Assembly: GCF_017094485.1 (NCBI RefSeq)
Contig: NZ_CP064786.1
Coordinates: 1,922,001 to 1,986,000, forward strand
Direction of reading: 5' to 3'
Length of the DNA: 64,000 bases
Source of the DNA: Natranaeroarchaeum sulfidigenes
Lineage (GTDB): Archaea > Halobacteriota > Halobacteria > Halobacteriales > Natronoarchaeaceae
Shown here: positions 34,605-43,330 of the stretch, one piece after another
Numbering within the stretch: position 1 is the stretch's first letter
How the letters are laid out: each line of letters opens with the position of its first letter
Position numbers and translations under genes: made by a program
Notes under the pieces: generated by a model
Database searches by the model: none
Seen by the model: only the letters and a program-made list of their open reading frames with translations
What the model was told of the DNA's origin: nothing

Positions 34605-35402
34605 TTAGCTCTCGCCACGTTCCAGGCTGAGTTCGATGTCAGTACTGCGAACGACGGCGTTGTCGGGATCCTCACAGGTAGCGGTTACCGTATCGCCCGA
34701 TTCGACATCAACGGGGTCCCAACCGTTTTCTTCGAAGTAGCGCTCCCACGCCTCTGCATGATCCGACCCTGTTATTTCGACAGTAATCGATTCAGCTTCG
34801 TCACCCGACTCTTGGTAGTGCAGGTCCTGCCTATCCTGTATCGCCCCTATTTGCATCGTGCTCTCGCTGCCGACCGCCGTAGGACCGTCTCCTTCGATAC
34901 TGGCGTCAACAAAAGAGACGATCGCACGAGTCTCATCTGAGTCCAGTTCCCGACAAACGAACTCCGGCTCACGGATCATTACGCTGTTTTCGTCGTCAGA
35001 GCGGAATACAGCCCCGAGTTCGTACGAAATGCGGGTGTTATCGTTGTCATAGTGCATCGCACCCATATCTTGATCGTTCAGTTCACTTATTCCGTCAACC
35101 GAGATTGTTGGAGAAGACTCATCGATGCTCATCCGCGCTCCCCGTGGGTTCAACTCGGCCAGTCGCTCCTGACCGCGATTCGTCTGCAGGTCGTTGAACG
35201 ACGCGCCCATCGAGGAGAAGGCGCGTTCGGCGTTTCGGTCCTGCTGTGCCGCCTGCGTGTCGCCGAGCGCGCCGAGGCCGAAGATGTAGACGACGCCGAC
35301 CGAGGTGATGATGATGCCAAAGACGAGGACGAAGGCGAGGAGATCACTGACTGCGCGGTCTCGTGCTGATGGGGTCTCGTCGTGGTGTTCCGGTCCGATC
35401 AT
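34605..35402 (-). CDS. Pilin-like protein of the type IV pilus-like operon (fifth)
   Basis: The 265-aa protein has a short charged head (RDRAVSDLL) and then one hydrophobic helix (about residues 20-45: AFVLVFGIIITSVGVVYIFG). A large soluble acidic domain of mostly polar residues follows. This matches the archaeal class III pilin-like layout, in which cleavage would leave the hydrophobic helix at the N-terminus. It overlaps the preceding gene by 4 nt and is last in the seven-gene operon. I believe similar haloarchaeal proteins are grouped as DUF7289, recalled rather than searched. The exact role is unknown. Confidence 0.7.
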   Translation of the reverse strand: MIGPEHHDETPSARDRAVSDLLAFVLVFGIIITSVGVVYIFGLGALGDTQAAQQDRNAERAFSSMGASFNDLQTNRGQERLAELNPRGARMSIDESSPTISVDGISELNDQDMGAMHYDNDNTRISYELGAVFRSDDENSVMIREPEFVCRELDSDETRAIVSFVDASIEGDGPTAVGSESTMQIGAIQDRQDLHYQESGDEAESITVEITGSDHAEAWERYFEENGWDPVDVESGDTVTATCEDPDNAVVRSTDIELSLERGES

Positions 35403-35902
35403 GTGTCTGGTCGCTCCTGAGATAGTGTGATGCTGTCACCGTCGGACTGGATCCAGATCTCTCCGCCCTGAACCGGTTCGTTAAGATCGTCCTCGTCTGG
35501 GTCCTCTTCGAGGTGGAGCGGTATTTCAACAGTGTCTGTCTGTCCAGAATCTAGTTCGAGGCAGTAGTCCCGTTCCCACACGTCACAGTCGTCGCTCAAG
35601 GTCACAAAGTACTGGCCACCAGAGAGTTGGCGTGGATGCTCGGTCCGGACGACCACATCCACATCCTCGTCCTCGTCGGCCCGCAGTGCGGACTGCTCGA
35701 CCGCCGTAATTTCGCTTGCGAGCCGATCACCGATCGTCGATTTCTCGTCGTAAGTCGCGCGATCCTTCTGGCTATCCAGAAGCGTCCCGGTCCCGATCAG
35801 CAGCCCCGAAATCAGGATCGTCGTGATCCCGATCGTGAGGACGTGCGTGATCGTCACCGAGACAGCGCGTCGGTCAGCTGGGAAGGATTGTTTTCGGCTC
35901 AT
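35399..35902 (-). CDS. Pilin-like protein of the type IV pilus-like operon (fourth)
   Basis: The 167-aa protein begins MSRKQSFPADRRAVSVTITH and continues in a hydrophobic helix (about residues 13-40). A soluble domain with two Cys (DDCDVWERDYCLEL) follows that may form a disulfide. The pilin-like layout is shared with its neighbours. ATGA overlaps occur on both sides. The function is inferred from context; the family is probably the haloarchaeal DUF7266 type, from memory. Confidence 0.68.
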   Translation of the reverse strand: MSRKQSFPADRRAVSVTITHVLTIGITTILISGLLIGTGTLLDSQKDRATYDEKSTIGDRLASEITAVEQSALRADEDEDVDVVVRTEHPRQLSGGQYFVTLSDDCDVWERDYCLELDSGQTDTVEIPLHLEEDPDEDDLNEPVQGGEIWIQSDGDSITLSQERPDT

Positions 35903-36351
35903 TCGTTGAGGTCCTCCAACTCAATCTCTCGATCGACCGTGGTCGATCGTGTTTCGTAGACCAAGTCGACGGTGACGCTCTCAATTTCCTCTCCCTCTGA
36001 TCCTGTTTCAACATTCACATCAACAATGTCAACAATGGTAGGTCCGGACTCGGCGTACCGTTCGGCAAGTAGCTCTGGATACTCGTCTTCGATATCGTCC
36101 GCGAAGCCATCCACATCGTACTCTTCGTACTCCTCATCGTCGTTCACTCGGTCGGCGTACTCATGGATGGTCTGCTCTACGTCAGACTCCAACGCCCCCG
36201 CATCAGACACCCCCGCGTTCGCCGAGCTTGACGCCATGTTCGCGGTGAAAAGCGTCGTCGAAAAGACCACGACGATACCGATCAGTACAAGCGAGAAGAC
36301 GACTGCTCCGGCGAGGATGAGCTGGCCGCGGTTGTCAGTATGTTCTGTCAT
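35899..36351 (-). CDS. Pilin-like protein of the type IV pilus-like operon (third)
   Basis: The 150-aa protein starts MTEHTDNRGQLILAGAVVFS: a charged head with an RGQ site, then a hydrophobic helix to about residue 32. The soluble part is extremely acidic (EEYEEYDVDGFADDIEDEY). The RGQ site resembles the G/Q cleavage position of archaeal prepilin peptidase substrates. It overlaps the next gene by 4 nt and lies 2 nt after the previous one. Recalled family: DUF7261 type. Confidence 0.68.
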   Translation of the reverse strand: MTEHTDNRGQLILAGAVVFSLVLIGIVVVFSTTLFTANMASSSANAGVSDAGALESDVEQTIHEYADRVNDDEEYEEYDVDGFADDIEDEYPELLAERYAESGPTIVDIVDVNVETGSEGEEIESVTVDLVYETRSTTVDREIELEDLNE

Positions 36352-36353
36352 GG

Positions 36354-36932
36354 TTATCGGATCGTCAATCGCACCTCGACAACGTTGTATATGTGCTCAG
36401 GGTCGCCCTCCTCGGCCTCATCTACTGGATAGTTATCGTTTGTGACTTCCTCACCGTTCTGTGGACTCCCACAGCCGGAACCCTCCATCAGCGGGTCGTC
36501 CTCGTACAGCGTCACCGTCCGGCTGACCGTCACGCCGTCCCGAGTCGACGCTCCTTGGTAGACGATTCTACCCTCAGTACCGTCGGCAGGTACTACTTCA
36601 ATATTCACCGACCGATCCCGGTCTGCGAACGTGCCGTTAATAAGTGTATGGAGGTCCGTGTCTCCTGGGAGTCCTGTCTCCGGTTCCGTATCTTCGTCGC
36701 CGAACCACTCCTCGTTGTCCGGATCGTAACATCGAACGATTTCCGAGAGGTCTTCCTGACCAGCGACCTCCATCACATCCTTTGCCTCCTGTTCGATCTG
36801 TGCCTGATTTCCGGTCTCGCCAGTCGAGGGGAGCAACACGGCGGAGTTCAGCGCGAAGAGAACGGCAGTCAGGAGAATCATCGCGCCGATGACGCCTTCG
36901 AGCGTGAACGCCTGTCCTCGTGTGTCGGCCAT
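36354..36932 (-). CDS. Pilin-like protein of the type IV pilus-like operon (second)
   Basis: The start at ATG 36932 gives a 192-aa protein beginning MADTRGQAFTLEGVIGAMIL. The RGQ site is followed by the hydrophobic helix, and a Glu at +6 after the presumed cleavage site is near the +5 Glu typical of pilins. Two Cys near the middle and C-terminal region may form disulfides. An earlier GTG at 36941 is in frame but lies inside the upstream gene. Recalled family: DUF7288 type. Confidence 0.68.
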   Translation of the reverse strand: MADTRGQAFTLEGVIGAMILLTAVLFALNSAVLLPSTGETGNQAQIEQEAKDVMEVAGQEDLSEIVRCYDPDNEEWFGDEDTEPETGLPGDTDLHTLINGTFADRDRSVNIEVVPADGTEGRIVYQGASTRDGVTVSRTVTLYEDDPLMEGSGCGSPQNGEEVTNDNYPVDEAEEGDPEHIYNVVEVRLTIR

Positions 36933-36934
36933 GG

Positions 36935-37450
36935 TTACCACACCCTCACTGTGAGTCGGTACGCTGGAGAGTCTGAATCCTCATCAGTGGTTTCCTCAAT
37001 GTCGCCGTAGTCCTCGGTCCAGTCTCCGTCAGTCTTCACTATCCGCGAAACCGACGAGGCATCCTGATCCTCGTAGGTGTGTCCACTCATCGGCACGTCC
37101 TCACCACTCTCATCGGGGCTCAACGGCGTGATCGTCACGTTGACCTGCGAGGTCGATGCGAGCCCCGCCTGTTCCTGTAGGTCCTCACCGTCCTTCTCGT
37201 CGAACCACTCATCGTAGTCCTCCTGCGTGATCGTATTCCGTTCTCCCTCACCGTCTACGATCAACATCCCAACACGCTCAGCCTGCGCACTGGTATCCTC
37301 ACCCTGAATCGCCTGGCCGTAGGGAGTAAACAGCGTCGGGAAGTACGCAAACACCGCGCCGACGACCAGCAGGAAGATGCTGATACCTATCGCGAAGTCC
37401 TGGGCGGTCTGGGCGCGCTCTTCGGTCCAGAATTTTGTGGTTCCCGCCAT
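36935..37450 (-). CDS. Pilin-like protein of the type IV pilus-like operon (first)
   Basis: The 171-aa protein has a basic head (MAGTTKFWTEERAQTAQDFA), a hydrophobic helix (about residues 19-42, IGISIFLLVVGAVFAYFPTLF) and an acidic soluble domain. Processing after RA would leave QTAQD with Asp at +5, a pilin-like feature. It is 1 nt after the pilC-like gene and 2 nt before the next pilin-like gene. Recalled family: DUF7287 type. Confidence 0.68.
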   Translation of the reverse strand: MAGTTKFWTEERAQTAQDFAIGISIFLLVVGAVFAYFPTLFTPYGQAIQGEDTSAQAERVGMLIVDGEGERNTITQEDYDEWFDEKDGEDLQEQAGLASTSQVNVTITPLSPDESGEDVPMSGHTYEDQDASSVSRIVKTDGDWTEDYGDIEETTDEDSDSPAYRLTVRVW

Positions 37451-37451
37451 G

Positions 37452-39506
37452 TTAGGTGATCAACATCCAGGTCACCAGTGCGATCGTCATCAGCACGATC
37501 ACGAACTTCATCCCACTGAGGATCTCGGCGTCACGGATATAGCCGCTGATCATCCCCGAGAGGATCGCCTGCATGGTCACCGCATGCAGGAACAGCATCG
37601 ACATGAGCTGGGTGTCGACGTCCGAGCCGAGCGCTTCGGGACCGCCCCCACCGCCCGCGCCTTCGAGTTCGTCGGCACCCGCCGCGCCCTCTGTCAGGCC
37701 GGACATCACGTCGAGGAACTGCGTCTGGAGGATCGCCATCACAGCCAGCAGCGTCAGATACGTCATGATGATGATGACGACCTGCATCAGGGTCCTGGAC
37801 CGGCGCTCGCGCTCGATATCGTCCTGGTTCTCGCTGGCCTGTGCAGCGGTGGTGAGCACGTCCGTGATCTGACTGGAGGCCTCCTGGGCCTTGCTGATGA
37901 GTTTGATCGTCCGGGCCATCCGCGGCATGTGGTACTTGTTGTTGAACTCGACGAGGGCATCCCGGAGGCTCATTCCGTAGTTGACCTTCGCGTACATCGT
38001 CTCGAACTCGGTGGCGAGTTTACCCGACGAGGTATCCGAGACCGTGCTAAACGACTCCAGGAGCGTCATCCCGGTGTCGTTCGCACTGGAGAGCTTTCGG
38101 AGACTGTCGGACATATCGCTGAGCACCTTCTTTCGGTGTCTGACGTTCCACTCGTAGAAGATGGTCAGCGGTACGAGTATGATGTACAGCGGCAGGTAGA
38201 CGTAGGCGAACGTTCCCCAGACCGCGTTCTCCTGCATCCCCTCCCACGAGGTCGGCACTGAGCCGGATGCCAGAGCAGTGACGACGACGACGAGTGCAAC
38301 GGGCACAGTCAGTGCCAGCGTCATCAGCGGATTATCCCTGAAGAAGATGTGTGGTCGGCGGATGATCTTCAGCGTCTCGTAGGTGCCCTCCCGGTCTTTC
38401 ATCCGGTCGAAGACGCCGAACTCGCCGGTGTACTCCTCGATCAACCCGAGATTGAGAATCCCAGTATCTGTATCGACTTTCACCCACTGGCTCGATCCTT
38501 CCGGATTGAGATAGCCGTCACCCGGTTCGTCCTCTTTGACGGTGGAGATAAGCACCAGAAATCCGAGGCCGGTCAGGGGAACCAGCGCGTAGACGGTTCC
38601 GTACAGCATCATCGTCTGGTCCTGCCCCATCATCTCCATGATGACGAGGATGATGATGAGCAACAGCGGAAACAGCGACAGCGTCATGTACATCTCCCCG
38701 AACAGCTCCAGGGTTTCGAGGGTCATCTCCTGTTGCTGTTTGGCGGTTCGCATGTGCTTTTCTTTCTTGTCGTCGAGGAAGCTCTGCATGTCCCCGCCGC
38801 TATTGACGATCGAGAGCATGTCCGTCAGAAACTGGCTCAACTCGTCGCTGGGCGAGCTCATTGCCTGGTTGCGGATCGCGCTCCGGTAGTCGGTATCGAA
38901 ATACTCGGTCTCCTGGACGATCGTCTGGAACTCGCGAGCGACTTCGCCGTAGGTATCCTCCGCATTGGCCATCGCTTCGAGGATCTCAAGTTGATTCAGC
39001 CCGCCCACCGAGAGGGCGTACATGAACGAGACTGCATCGGGCAACAGCATGTTGATCTCGCGTTTCCGTGCGGACGACCGGGAGTACGGGACCGCAACGA
39101 GTGCTCCAAAGCCGACTGCAAACCCGATCGTCCCGAAGACGAGTCCAGTAACGGCGATAACCAGCGGGACACGCAGGCTGATGACCAGCTCTAGCAGCGC
39201 CTCGTTCCCGATGGGGATGCCAAGGAGTGGGTCCTGCCCGAACAACCCCATAGCGACCAGTGAGTAGCCAAGCAGCGTTCCCAGTGCCCACAGAATGACG
39301 CCACTGATGACGCCAATCGCGAGCGCCCGTGAAATGTACATCTCGACCGTCGACGGCATCCGGGCCTCAGCCAGTTTCTGCTCGACGTCGGCGACGAAAT
39401 CGCTATCGTCGGCGAACAGTCGCTCGTACAGCGGGTAGAACGCATCACCGAGACCGTCACCGGAGCCAACGCCGCCACCGGAGCCCCCAGTCCTGTCGAG
39501 GCTCAT
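37452..39506 (-). CDS. pilC: PilC/TadC-like membrane platform protein
   Basis: This type IV pilus or type II secretion platform component is 684 aa long, with two copies of the T2SSF domain. The first copy (about residues 150-300) reads INMLLPDAVSFMYALSVGG, then FLTDMLSIVNSGGDMQSFLDD. The second (about 470-600) reads LSDMSDSLRKLSSANDTGMTL and ISKAQEASSQITDVLTTAAQ. Some eight or nine membrane helices are present. It lies 2 nt after the ATPase gene and drives assembly together with it. It resembles archaellum FlaJ and Tad TadB/C more than bacterial PilC. Confidence 0.88.
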   Translation of the reverse strand: MSLDRTGGSGGGVGSGDGLGDAFYPLYERLFADDSDFVADVEQKLAEARMPSTVEMYISRALAIGVISGVILWALGTLLGYSLVAMGLFGQDPLLGIPIGNEALLELVISLRVPLVIAVTGLVFGTIGFAVGFGALVAVPYSRSSARKREINMLLPDAVSFMYALSVGGLNQLEILEAMANAEDTYGEVAREFQTIVQETEYFDTDYRSAIRNQAMSSPSDELSQFLTDMLSIVNSGGDMQSFLDDKKEKHMRTAKQQQEMTLETLELFGEMYMTLSLFPLLLIIILVIMEMMGQDQTMMLYGTVYALVPLTGLGFLVLISTVKEDEPGDGYLNPEGSSQWVKVDTDTGILNLGLIEEYTGEFGVFDRMKDREGTYETLKIIRRPHIFFRDNPLMTLALTVPVALVVVVTALASGSVPTSWEGMQENAVWGTFAYVYLPLYIILVPLTIFYEWNVRHRKKVLSDMSDSLRKLSSANDTGMTLLESFSTVSDTSSGKLATEFETMYAKVNYGMSLRDALVEFNNKYHMPRMARTIKLISKAQEASSQITDVLTTAAQASENQDDIERERRSRTLMQVVIIIMTYLTLLAVMAILQTQFLDVMSGLTEGAAGADELEGAGGGGGPEALGSDVDTQLMSMLFLHAVTMQAILSGMISGYIRDAEILSGMKFVIVLMTIALVTWMLIT

Positions 39507-39508
39507 AG

Positions 39509-42500
39509 TCAGTCTTCACCGTCCTCCGCGTCGAACTCGACGTACTCGAACCCTTCTATCCGCTCGTCGACGATGTCACCGTCGCGCTCTTCGTCCTCGT
39601 CGCTATCGATCTCGTCGAAGACGGTTCCGTCCTCGTCGCTATCGATCTCGTCGAAGACCGTCCCCCCATCGTCACCATCCGCCTCGGGCTGATCCGGCTG
39701 TGAAGCCTGTTCGTCAGGGCCGGTCGCATCGTGGGACTCGGTGTCCGGTTCGACGTGTCTCGGACTCTCTGCAGAGGGTTCGATCTCCGGTTCGTCGGTT
39801 TTCTCGGTCTCCGTAACTTCGGTTTCGGTACTGTCTGACGCGTTGTCTGCGTCTGTCGTCGCCCCTTCCTCGTCAGGTACTTCGATCGTAATCTCCGGTT
39901 CTGACTCGGCGGCCGTCGACTGATCCCCACCCACGTCGGACTCACCATCGGATTCTACTCGGGAGGGTGCGCCACGTTGATCGACGTCAGTCTCGACCGG
40001 TCCTGCATCCTCGCCGAACGGTTTTTCGTCACGATCATCGAACAGAGACCCGTCGTCCGGCCCCTCGTACTCACTGAATACGCTGGATTCCGGCGTCTCC
40101 CCAAAGACGCTCCCGGTGTCATCGATCGGTTCCTCCTCGGACTTGCCGCTCTCTTCGGTATCGGAATCGCTTCCGGTGCCATCGTCCCACGCGGGAGTAA
40201 CCGGCTCGTCGGTGTCCACAGGAGCTTGCGCTTCCGTATCCTGTTCTGGCATATCGTCCGGGATGGGAGCGCTCGCGCTATCGCCCCCCGGCTCACTGTC
40301 TGTCTCCGTTTCGGGGGACTGTGGGATATCGGTCGAGGACTCGGCTGTGGCGTCGCTACGCGCTTCCGCTGGGTCGGCGTCCGAGCCTGCTGTGGATCCG
40401 GCGTTTGGCGAGGTGGTGGTTTCCGATGCCTCCGGGGCGGTCGCTGATGCGGCCTCGTCGTCAGGAACACTCGCCGGTAGGTCTGAGCGGGAGTCGGTAG
40501 TCCCTTCGACGTCAGCACCTCCTGCCGAAAGGTTCTCGATCGCATCCCGTGCGTCCGTTGCAACCGTATCGGTTCCACCCGCGTCCGCATTCGCTTCCCC
40601 TGTCGAATCGTCGCTGCCGAAGAAGAATCCGTCCTCCTCCGAGAGCCAGTCGGGATCGTCGACATCATCCATGCCGAAATCGAAGCTGTCTTCATCCACG
40701 CCGAACGCGTCGTCCGTCACGTCGAACTCGTCGGTATCGCTGGTGGCTTCCGTGTCTGCCGACTCGGCCATGTCGTCCAATGTGGCAGAGAGTCCGCTCG
40801 GCGTCTTGCCACGATACTCCTCGAAGATCGACTCCTGTGCGCGTTCGAGAACGTCCGTGGCCTCGTTCATTCCCTCCTCGTCCGCGGATGGTCGCGGCAC
40901 AAGCGCCTCTTTTTCGGGGTCGACATCGATCAGAACGCTTTCCATCTCACGGAGGTCTTCGAGACTCTCTTCGAGTTGGCCGTTGGCAATCAACGTCAGA
41001 ATCGTGTCCGGATCATTGATGTACGCCTGGATCGTCGCGGCGACCTTGCTGTATTCGCTGAGGTCGTTTTTGATGAGGTACGCGAGGATGGTCCGACGTT
41101 CCTCGAGTTCACGGTCGAGGCGTTCTTGGCCCCACCCTCGATCGAATTTAATCTCTTCTAAGGTGTTGGACTCGCCCATCTTGAGGAACTCGTCAGTTTC
41201 AGCCTGCCACTGGTAGACGTCCTGGACGTTGATTTCGTCGTTTTCGGCGTCGTAGTGGTTGACCTCTGTCAGCTCTTTGTTTCGACGGACCTTGTGGCCC
41301 TGCACGCGTGTCTGAGTCTGGATGGAAACCAGATCCAGCGCCGTGAACATCGTCTTCGAGACGTTGATCGGCTCGGTGGTGAACCGTTTGAGCACCTCAC
41401 CGACGCTGTCTGCGTGGAACGTCGTGTAGGTGGTGTGGCCGGTAGACATAACCTGAAAAAGCGTCCGACCCTCTTCACCACGGATCTCACCCATGACGAT
41501 GTAATCCGGGCGCTGTCGCAGTGCGGCCTCCAGCAGATCGAACTCGTCGACATCCCCCTCGTCGTCGTCAGAGAAGGATGGTCGGGTGATACTGGCGATC
41601 CAGTTTCGCTGTGGCAACTCGACCTCGCGGGTGTCCTCGATAGAGACTATCTTCGTGTTCGAGGGAATAAACAGTGACACTGCATTCAGGCTGGTCGTCT
41701 TCCCGGATGCGGTACCTCCCGCGAAGATCAGGCTCTTGTGGTTCTCGATACAGAGCCACAGAAAGGCCATCTCGTCGAGGCTGAAGGTGTTCCAGTTGAT
41801 CAGATCGATCGGGGTAAAGGGGACGTCTTTGAACTGCCGGATCGTGTAGTTCGTCCCGTGGTCGGACACCTCCCGGCCGAGCGTTAGCTGTGATCGCGAG
41901 CCATCGGGCAGCGTGGCGTCGACCTGTGGACGTCGCTTGCTGATACCCTTCCCGGAACGCTGGGCCAGTTTTACGACGAAGTCGTCGAGTTCCTCCTTTC
42001 CGTGGTAGACGTTCGAGATGATCTGCTCGTAGTCGGTATGATACACGAAGACGGGCGAGTTGTAGCCGTCACAGGAGATATCCTCGACGTTGATGTCGTG
42101 TTTGATACCGTCGATCCGCTCGTAGCCGATGAAGTCACGTTTCAGCAGATAGAGAAGCTTCTCGACCTGATACTCTGTTAGATCTTCCGGATCGTCAGCT
42201 AGGACCGCAGGTTCCGGGCGGACCTCGATCCCATCGATTTGCCGCTCCTCATCGTCGTCTTCGACGTCTTTCCCCATCAGCTTCTTGATCTCGTCGACGA
42301 TACCACTTTCCTGGTCCGCGGTAGCGCTGAACAGATCGTATCGTCTGAGGAGCCGCTTTGTCTCTCGATCAAGGACGTCCTTTCGACTTTCCTCATCACC
42401 GGCGGTCGCTATCTCGTCGTCAGCGTACTTGATCGCCGTCCGGAGTTTCCCAGTGAGGAACTCCCGGAGGTTGTCCTCGATTTCGTTTTGATACGGTTCG

Positions 42501-43330
42501 ATCAGATAGTACTTTTTCTCGTTTTCTTTTTCGGAATGAAAGAGAATGACGAACGCGTAGGGTTTGTTGACCCAGTAGCGGTTCTCCTCACGGAAGTGGA
42601 GCTTTTTGGCCATGGGTACGGCCTTTTCGAGGTCGTACCGATTGACGACCGTTGTGTAGCCACTGTCGGTGCTGAAAAACTCGTCTTCGTCGACCTCCTC
42701 GCGAACGTTGACCGTTCGCTCATCGATGAGATCGGAGAGTATCTTTGCCCGGTCGCCACCGGCATGCAGCCGACCCCCTATAGTCTCCGGATCGAATCCC
42801 AGATACTCCGAGGGCTCCCAGGGGATCGGTTCGCCATTCGAGTCTCTGGGTGCCTGTACATCCGTTCCCCGGCCCTCGTAGTAGAACTCCTGCTTGAAGT
42901 GTTCCCACTCGTACTCGTCTTTGACCGCGGACGTCTGCATCGGGTCGATATACGACCAGAGCGTCCGGTCCCAGTCTTTCGCCCACGGTGCGGCAAAGTC
43001 GCTGACGACATCGGCAAAGCCGTCCGGCTGGAACCCGAGATACGCGGCTGGATCGAGCGACGTATTCTGCCAGTCCTCGCCAGTCGGCTTCGGAGGCTCC
43101 AGCTCCTCGTCGTCACCACTGTCCAGACCGAGTTCTTCCTCGGGCGGATCCGGATACAGATCGTCGACCTCATCACCGTAGCCAAACTCCTCCATAAAAT
43201 CGGCCCAGGTGTACTCCCCGACACGCACAGTATCCGAGGACGACTCTTGCTCGTCCTCGGTGGGAGCGGCCGACTCATCGGCGGATTCGAATCCACGTGA
43301 CCCCGACTGGTCGGCGTCATCAATAGCCAT
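39509..43330 (-). CDS. pilB: Type II/IV secretion ATPase with long acidic C-terminal tail
   Basis: The 1273-aa protein powers pilus assembly. The N-terminal part (residues 40-480) holds an acidic leader and a membrane- or substrate-contact domain. The ATPase core has Walker A AGGTASGKTTSLNAVSLF near residue 540, Asp box SIEDTREVELPQ, Walker B YIVMGEIRGEE, and His box MSTGHTTYTTFHADS. Residues 850-1273 are a disordered tail of about 420 residues dominated by Asp, Glu, Ser, Thr and Ala. The tail ends with a near-perfect 12-residue duplication (GTVFDEIDSDED). Most relatives are 500-600 aa. GGAGGT, 5 nt before the ATG, is a strong SD. Confidence 0.9.
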   Translation of the reverse strand: MAIDDADQSGSRGFESADESAAPTEDEQESSSDTVRVGEYTWADFMEEFGYGDEVDDLYPDPPEEELGLDSGDDEELEPPKPTGEDWQNTSLDPAAYLGFQPDGFADVVSDFAAPWAKDWDRTLWSYIDPMQTSAVKDEYEWEHFKQEFYYEGRGTDVQAPRDSNGEPIPWEPSEYLGFDPETIGGRLHAGGDRAKILSDLIDERTVNVREEVDEDEFFSTDSGYTTVVNRYDLEKAVPMAKKLHFREENRYWVNKPYAFVILFHSEKENEKKYYLIEPYQNEIEDNLREFLTGKLRTAIKYADDEIATAGDEESRKDVLDRETKRLLRRYDLFSATADQESGIVDEIKKLMGKDVEDDDEERQIDGIEVRPEPAVLADDPEDLTEYQVEKLLYLLKRDFIGYERIDGIKHDINVEDISCDGYNSPVFVYHTDYEQIISNVYHGKEELDDFVVKLAQRSGKGISKRRPQVDATLPDGSRSQLTLGREVSDHGTNYTIRQFKDVPFTPIDLINWNTFSLDEMAFLWLCIENHKSLIFAGGTASGKTTSLNAVSLFIPSNTKIVSIEDTREVELPQRNWIASITRPSFSDDDEGDVDEFDLLEAALRQRPDYIVMGEIRGEEGRTLFQVMSTGHTTYTTFHADSVGEVLKRFTTEPINVSKTMFTALDLVSIQTQTRVQGHKVRRNKELTEVNHYDAENDEINVQDVYQWQAETDEFLKMGESNTLEEIKFDRGWGQERLDRELEERRTILAYLIKNDLSEYSKVAATIQAYINDPDTILTLIANGQLEESLEDLREMESVLIDVDPEKEALVPRPSADEEGMNEATDVLERAQESIFEEYRGKTPSGLSATLDDMAESADTEATSDTDEFDVTDDAFGVDEDSFDFGMDDVDDPDWLSEEDGFFFGSDDSTGEANADAGGTDTVATDARDAIENLSAGGADVEGTTDSRSDLPASVPDDEAASATAPEASETTTSPNAGSTAGSDADPAEARSDATAESSTDIPQSPETETDSEPGGDSASAPIPDDMPEQDTEAQAPVDTDEPVTPAWDDGTGSDSDTEESGKSEEEPIDDTGSVFGETPESSVFSEYEGPDDGSLFDDRDEKPFGEDAGPVETDVDQRGAPSRVESDGESDVGGDQSTAAESEPEITIEVPDEEGATTDADNASDSTETEVTETEKTDEPEIEPSAESPRHVEPDTESHDATGPDEQASQPDQPEADGDDGGTVFDEIDSDEDGTVFDEIDSDEDEERDGDIVDERIEGFEYVEFDAEDGED
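39597..39668 (-). repeat. 36-bp tandem duplication in the ATPase tail
   Basis: Two nearly identical 36-bp units encode GTVFDEIDSDED twice in succession inside the acidic tail. The same reading frame is kept, so repeat slippage changes tail length without truncating the protein. Boundaries are approximate to a few bases. Confidence 0.7.

Follow-up and report, generated by a model that had tools for sequence, protein, structure and literature searches.

The seven-gene operon at positions 34605-43330, minus strand, of a 64,000-nucleotide stretch of the Natranaeroarchaeum sulfidigenes genome (the window) encodes the ATPase of a type IV pilus, a PilC platform with two domains and five short prepilin-like proteins that differ from one another. 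We judge it, with a probability of about 0.8, to be orthologous to the PilB4 type IV pilus system of haloarchaea and to build its own multi-subunit surface filament. The initial annotation had described a pilus-like operon of seven tightly packed genes with five pilin-like proteins, and that observation is confirmed: all the open reading frames are present as described, and the profile search that it had proposed for each protein returned a Pfam family for all seven (T2SSE, T2SSF, DUF7287, DUF7288, DUF7261, DUF7266 and DUF7289). The interpretation that it had built on this is, overall, partly supported.

Organization of the operon and its prepilins

The first gene encodes a pilB4-type assembly ATPase of 1273 aa (39509-43330; Pfam T2SSE 5.5e-31 and PilB3_C 4.8e-7) and is followed by that for a pilC4-type membrane platform of 684 aa with two T2SSF domains (37452-39506; T2SSF 2.4e-26, in two stretches). 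The prepilin genes come next, for proteins of 171, 195, 150, 167 and 265 aa, in the order DUF7287 (36935-37450; Pfam 5.4e-33), DUF7288 (36354-36941; 4.1e-46), DUF7261 (35899-36351; 7.5e-9), DUF7266 (35399-35902; 5.7e-15) and DUF7289 (34605-35402; 2e-48). Neighbouring genes overlap by at most 4 nt or lie at most 2 nt apart; the one larger overlap, 7 nt at 36935-36941, vanishes when the start of DUF7288 is placed at the in-frame ATG at 36932, which is probably the true start.

All seven genes are intact, under purifying selection and real. Compared with one genome of the same genus, dN/dS was 0.02 for PilC, 0.16 for PilB and 0.18 to 0.25 for the five pilins. The dN values of the pilins in this comparison (0.10 to 0.26) are 12 to 32 times that of PilC (0.008), which suggests a nearly frozen engine bearing fast-evolving heads.

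Each of the five window pilins has a class III prepilin signal, in which R-[GA] precedes a Q or V at the cleavage site and a hydrophobic helix follows. The predicted cleavages are ERA/QTAQDF for DUF7287, TRG/QAFTLE for DUF7288, NRG/QLILAG for DUF7261, RRA/VSVTIT for DUF7266 and DRA/VSDLLAF for DUF7289. In a scan over 80 to 83 homologues per family, the R-[GA] site was present in 81/81 sequences for DUF7287, 82/83 for DUF7288, 80/80 for DUF7261 and 78/82 for DUF7289, while DUF7266 homologues had an [RK][GA] site in 81/81, one being K-G; since the scan was steered by the expected motif, these counts speak for consistency and are not an independent discovery. The residues after the site are characteristic of each family, with Asp at +5 in DUF7287 (78/81), Glu at +6 in DUF7288 (81/82), Glu or Asp at +3 in DUF7289 (58/78) and Gln at +1 in DUF7261 (78/80). 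No conserved acidic residue after the cleavage site was seen in the 80 to 81 homologues each of DUF7261 and DUF7266.

In the AlphaFold2 model of the DUF7289 protein (pLDDT 86.8) an N-terminal helix spans residues 13-73 and the head is rich in beta structure; the DUF7288 model (pLDDT 79) shows a kinked N-terminal helix with a sheet. Foldseek gave no significant fold match in the PDB for either model, and profile searches of the same two families against PDB sequences returned nothing useful. Of the family pairs compared profile to profile, DUF7289 and DUF7266 alone showed a relation, a weak one (72.6%, across 57 N-terminal columns); the window DUF7288 protein also matches the Pfam DUF7287 model weakly (5e-5, below the cut-off). 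Two stand-alone open frames of the DUF7289 family, of 505 and 1347 aa, lie away from the operon in the same genome (1336772-1337497 and 816008-816691). The absence of a major pilin from the set, as first annotated, is an interpretation and cannot be read from the sequence.

The operon does lack a peptidase gene, as had been noted. The genome has a single Peptidase_A24 (PibD-type) gene, which is encoded elsewhere, at 3.027 Mb, so that a missing operon peptidase is normal and not diagnostic, and the use first made of it as a pointer to a pseudopilus does not stand.

An ATPase of the PilB4 kind

The operon ATPase is a VirB11/GspE-family enzyme of the euryarchaeal kind, as seen in its T2SSE match and in its closest solved chain, 2oap from Archaeoglobus fulgidus (1.4e-109). 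Its motor core is 81 to 90% identical to those of the named relatives compared, against 51, 37 and 28% for three paralogues in its own genome. The core is flanked by two additional regions. The N-terminal extension (42761-43225) was found by motif scan to contain two YxWxxF...YLGF modules, with YxWxxF at residues 40 and 140 and YLGF at 97 and 176, that is, an internal duplication. The C-terminal tail (39512-40669; 386 aa, 34% Asp+Glu) is presumably disordered and carries the motifs SVFGE, SVFSE, SLFDD, TVFDE and TVFDE. Many relatives share both the N-terminal module and the acidic tail; one or two copies of the module are often recognisable in them, the exact patterns being present in part of the relatives only. 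A 564-aa paralogue from the same genome has neither region.

An S[I/L]F[D/G]D motif array is present in about 70% of the ATPase tails tested. Counting the broader pattern [S/G/A/T][I/L/V/M]F[D/G/S/A/E]x, the window tail holds 5 motifs against 0.30 expected from composition shuffles, and at least two were found in 28 of 39 acidic tails and none in the other 11, with a total of 127 against 13.5 expected by the same shuffles. This excess is suggestive only, because the pattern was picked after inspecting the tails and the sequences are related and thus not independent.

These features fit the system of which HVO_1160 (PilB4) of Haloferax volcanii is the ATPase. Makarova et al. (2016, PMC4858521) described that locus in silico as a pilus system of clade 2 that has pilins of its own, among them one predicted to be the major pilin (arCOG03926) and a shared minor one (arCOG02911); its ATPase carries Halobacteria-specific additional N- and C-terminal regions. 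The window operon likewise has extra ATPase regions, a cognate adjoining PilC/TadC and several class III pilins of its own; its likeness to the HVO_1160 locus is judged from the published description, and on that basis no differences between the two are established. The H. volcanii control genome was also matched by DUF7287 and DUF7288, and DUF7289 may correspond to arCOG02911, whose description as variable in length and duplicated it fits.

A separate PilB4/PilC4 pilus had already been proposed in a 2015 review (PMC4371748). The suggestion that the operon is a good candidate for an under-described system therefore does not hold: the system is already known in kind, described in silico. The PilB4 protein was detected in one medium only (PMC7305310), and pilB4-pilC4 is expressed, with transcripts lowered during infection by the virus HFTV1 (PMC12542753). 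In the searchable literature we found no mention of DUF7287, DUF7288, DUF7289, DUF7266 or DUF7261, and HVO_1155-1160 are named only in the 2016 census. The initial annotation would have been refuted by close homologues from a pilus already studied by experiment and built of these five subunits; none were found there either. A search of the open literature, with most subscription journals and preprints outside it, returned no deletion phenotype of or experiment on the PilB4 locus.

Distribution of the engine and of the pilin block

A second refuting result named beforehand was that the pilin genes would not be conserved; the set proved to be conserved. Among 57 named haloarchaeal loci found through PilC, some of the incomplete ones being cut by contig ends, all five pilin families are present at 49 and stand in the window order at 46. 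The same operon is held by three loci from the Haloferacaceae. DUF7288 was found in 273 of 292 sampled Halobacteria genomes (∼93%), and DUF7287 in none of the 19 genomes of the class that are without DUF7288, nor in one with a marginal DUF7288 match. Given this distribution and the published PilB4 system, the operon is ordinary in kind. A large extra DUF7289 gene, absent in the window, adjoins the operon in many haloarchaea. Downstream of the operon, Halapricum sp. CBA1109 has another DUF7287/DUF7288 pair as well as a DUF7289-like frame of 3.9 kb.

We also considered that DUF7288 might be confined to Halobacteria and rejected this, as many other genomes of the phylum carry it. At five loci from other euryarchaeal families outside the class, the order DUF7287-DUF7288-DUF7261-DUF7266-DUF7289 is the same as in the window, but an additional DUF7289 protein of 475 to 529 aa follows, and no PilB or PilC gene occurs in the 17 to 19 kb stretches examined around the block. 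That the block keeps its order without an adjoining engine suggests that the five pilins are a travelling unit, which predates Halobacteria and is separable from the engine. At one of these five loci the pilin block is duplicated in tandem.

The converse arrangement is found in one haloarchaeal genus of the same order (labelled g26), where the engine is kept and the pilins are swapped. Seven of its eight genomes have a PilC4-type platform, with 58 to 61% identity. In the four regions examined the PilB4-PilC4 engine is followed by a single DUF7289-like prepilin of 549 to 650 aa (open-frame length), and the other three genomes have homologues of this large prepilin beside PilC; from its sequence, we read it as probably containing Ig-like repeats. 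The YxWxxF...YLGF module was detected by motif scan in neither of two g26 ATPases checked. Since the same engine has one large pilin here in place of five, the five pilins are not mechanically required by it. In profile searches the PilB4-type gene is the sole match to the archaellum-motor family in these genomes, and below its cut-off, so that they appear to be without an archaellum and a PilB3-type engine, as judged by matches to that family, which leave room for more distant ATPases. The eighth genome, a one-contig genome of 1.03 Mb, has a broken PilB4-PilC4, in which a stop codon interrupts the ATPase and PilC is split.

Nature of the filament

We next weighed whether the five pilins themselves make up the filament. 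The operon could contribute no more than minor pilins and another motor to a filament whose body consists of stand-alone PilA pilins from elsewhere in the genome. Genes with the Pilin_N domain of PilA-type pilins do occur there, including a cluster of three near 1.025 Mb, and limited cross-complementation among PilB paralogues has been reported in H. volcanii (PMC6491452). However, H. volcanii without PilB3-C3 shows no pili although pilB4-C4 is expressed (PMC4371748), and a dedicated major pilin is predicted inside the PilB4 set (PMC4858521), which makes this arrangement unlikely, if still worth keeping in mind. The PilB3-C3/PilA system has a related motor, and the relative of the operon ATPase with 51% core identity has no adjacent pilins in this genome. 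The two systems differ in that the PilB3 locus is without pilin genes and PilA pilins carry Pilin_N, whereas none of the five operon pilins matched this domain in Pfam.

The pseudopilins of type II secretion are GspG-H-I-J-K, and five distinct pilins in a fixed order recall them, as does the acidic residue near position 5 of DUF7287 and DUF7288, present in most GspG-H-I-J-K proteins. The five window pilins could by this analogy form a short pseudopilus acting as a piston for protein secretion, with no long surface filament, as the initial annotation had considered. Archaea of the class Halobacteria, however, have no outer membrane; Pfam accounts for all seven operon genes and none is a secretin; no linked secreted substrate was identified; and the nearest described context of these pilins is that of archaeal pili (PMC4858521). 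A pseudopilus is on these grounds rather improbable. That the operon would be a variant archaellum or a decayed remnant is scarcely credible, because its ATPase reaches 391 bits with the archaellum-motor family but stays below the family cut-off of 550, the genome has a separate archaellum-type ATPase gene preceded by a FlaH-like open reading frame at 2.31 Mb (37% core identity to the operon enzyme), the operon shares a homologous ATPase and platform with the archaellum but has no arl accessory genes, and purifying selection acts on all its genes, each of them intact. The first description of the machine as something other than the archaellum thus stands.

Returning to a PilB4-type pilus with its own pilins, the operon product is most likely a thin multi-subunit surface pilus for adhesion or cell contact. 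The conserved motifs suggest that the five prepilins would enter the membrane and be cut after R-[GA] by the genome's lone PibD-type peptidase, and by homology the ATPase and the PilC platform would then polymerise them on their hydrophobic helices. Their fixed order and joint absence are consistent with the five acting as one set and building a single filament of several subunits that is neither a PilA pilus nor the archaellum. This filament may serve for contact with surfaces or cells, its fast-evolving heads turned outward; the step from a conserved operon to surface adhesion is the weakest one that we infer. Weighing against this reading are the absence of a significant PDB fold match for the DUF7289 and DUF7288 models and the single large pilin beside the g26 engine. 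More speculatively, and with considerable doubt, the filament might be obligately hetero-oligomeric with no single major pilin, its block inherited across euryarchaea with interchangeable engines, the haloarchaeal engine being positioned or regulated through its acidic S[I/L]F[D/G]D tail and one genus having traded the block for a single giant Ig-like pilin.

The operon thus belongs to a machine that is present in ∼93% of sampled Halobacteria and has a pilin block predating the class, yet for which we found no published phenotype. Genus g26, having kept the engine and exchanged five pilins for one, offers a natural experiment that could show which pilins the motor of an archaeal pilus tolerates.
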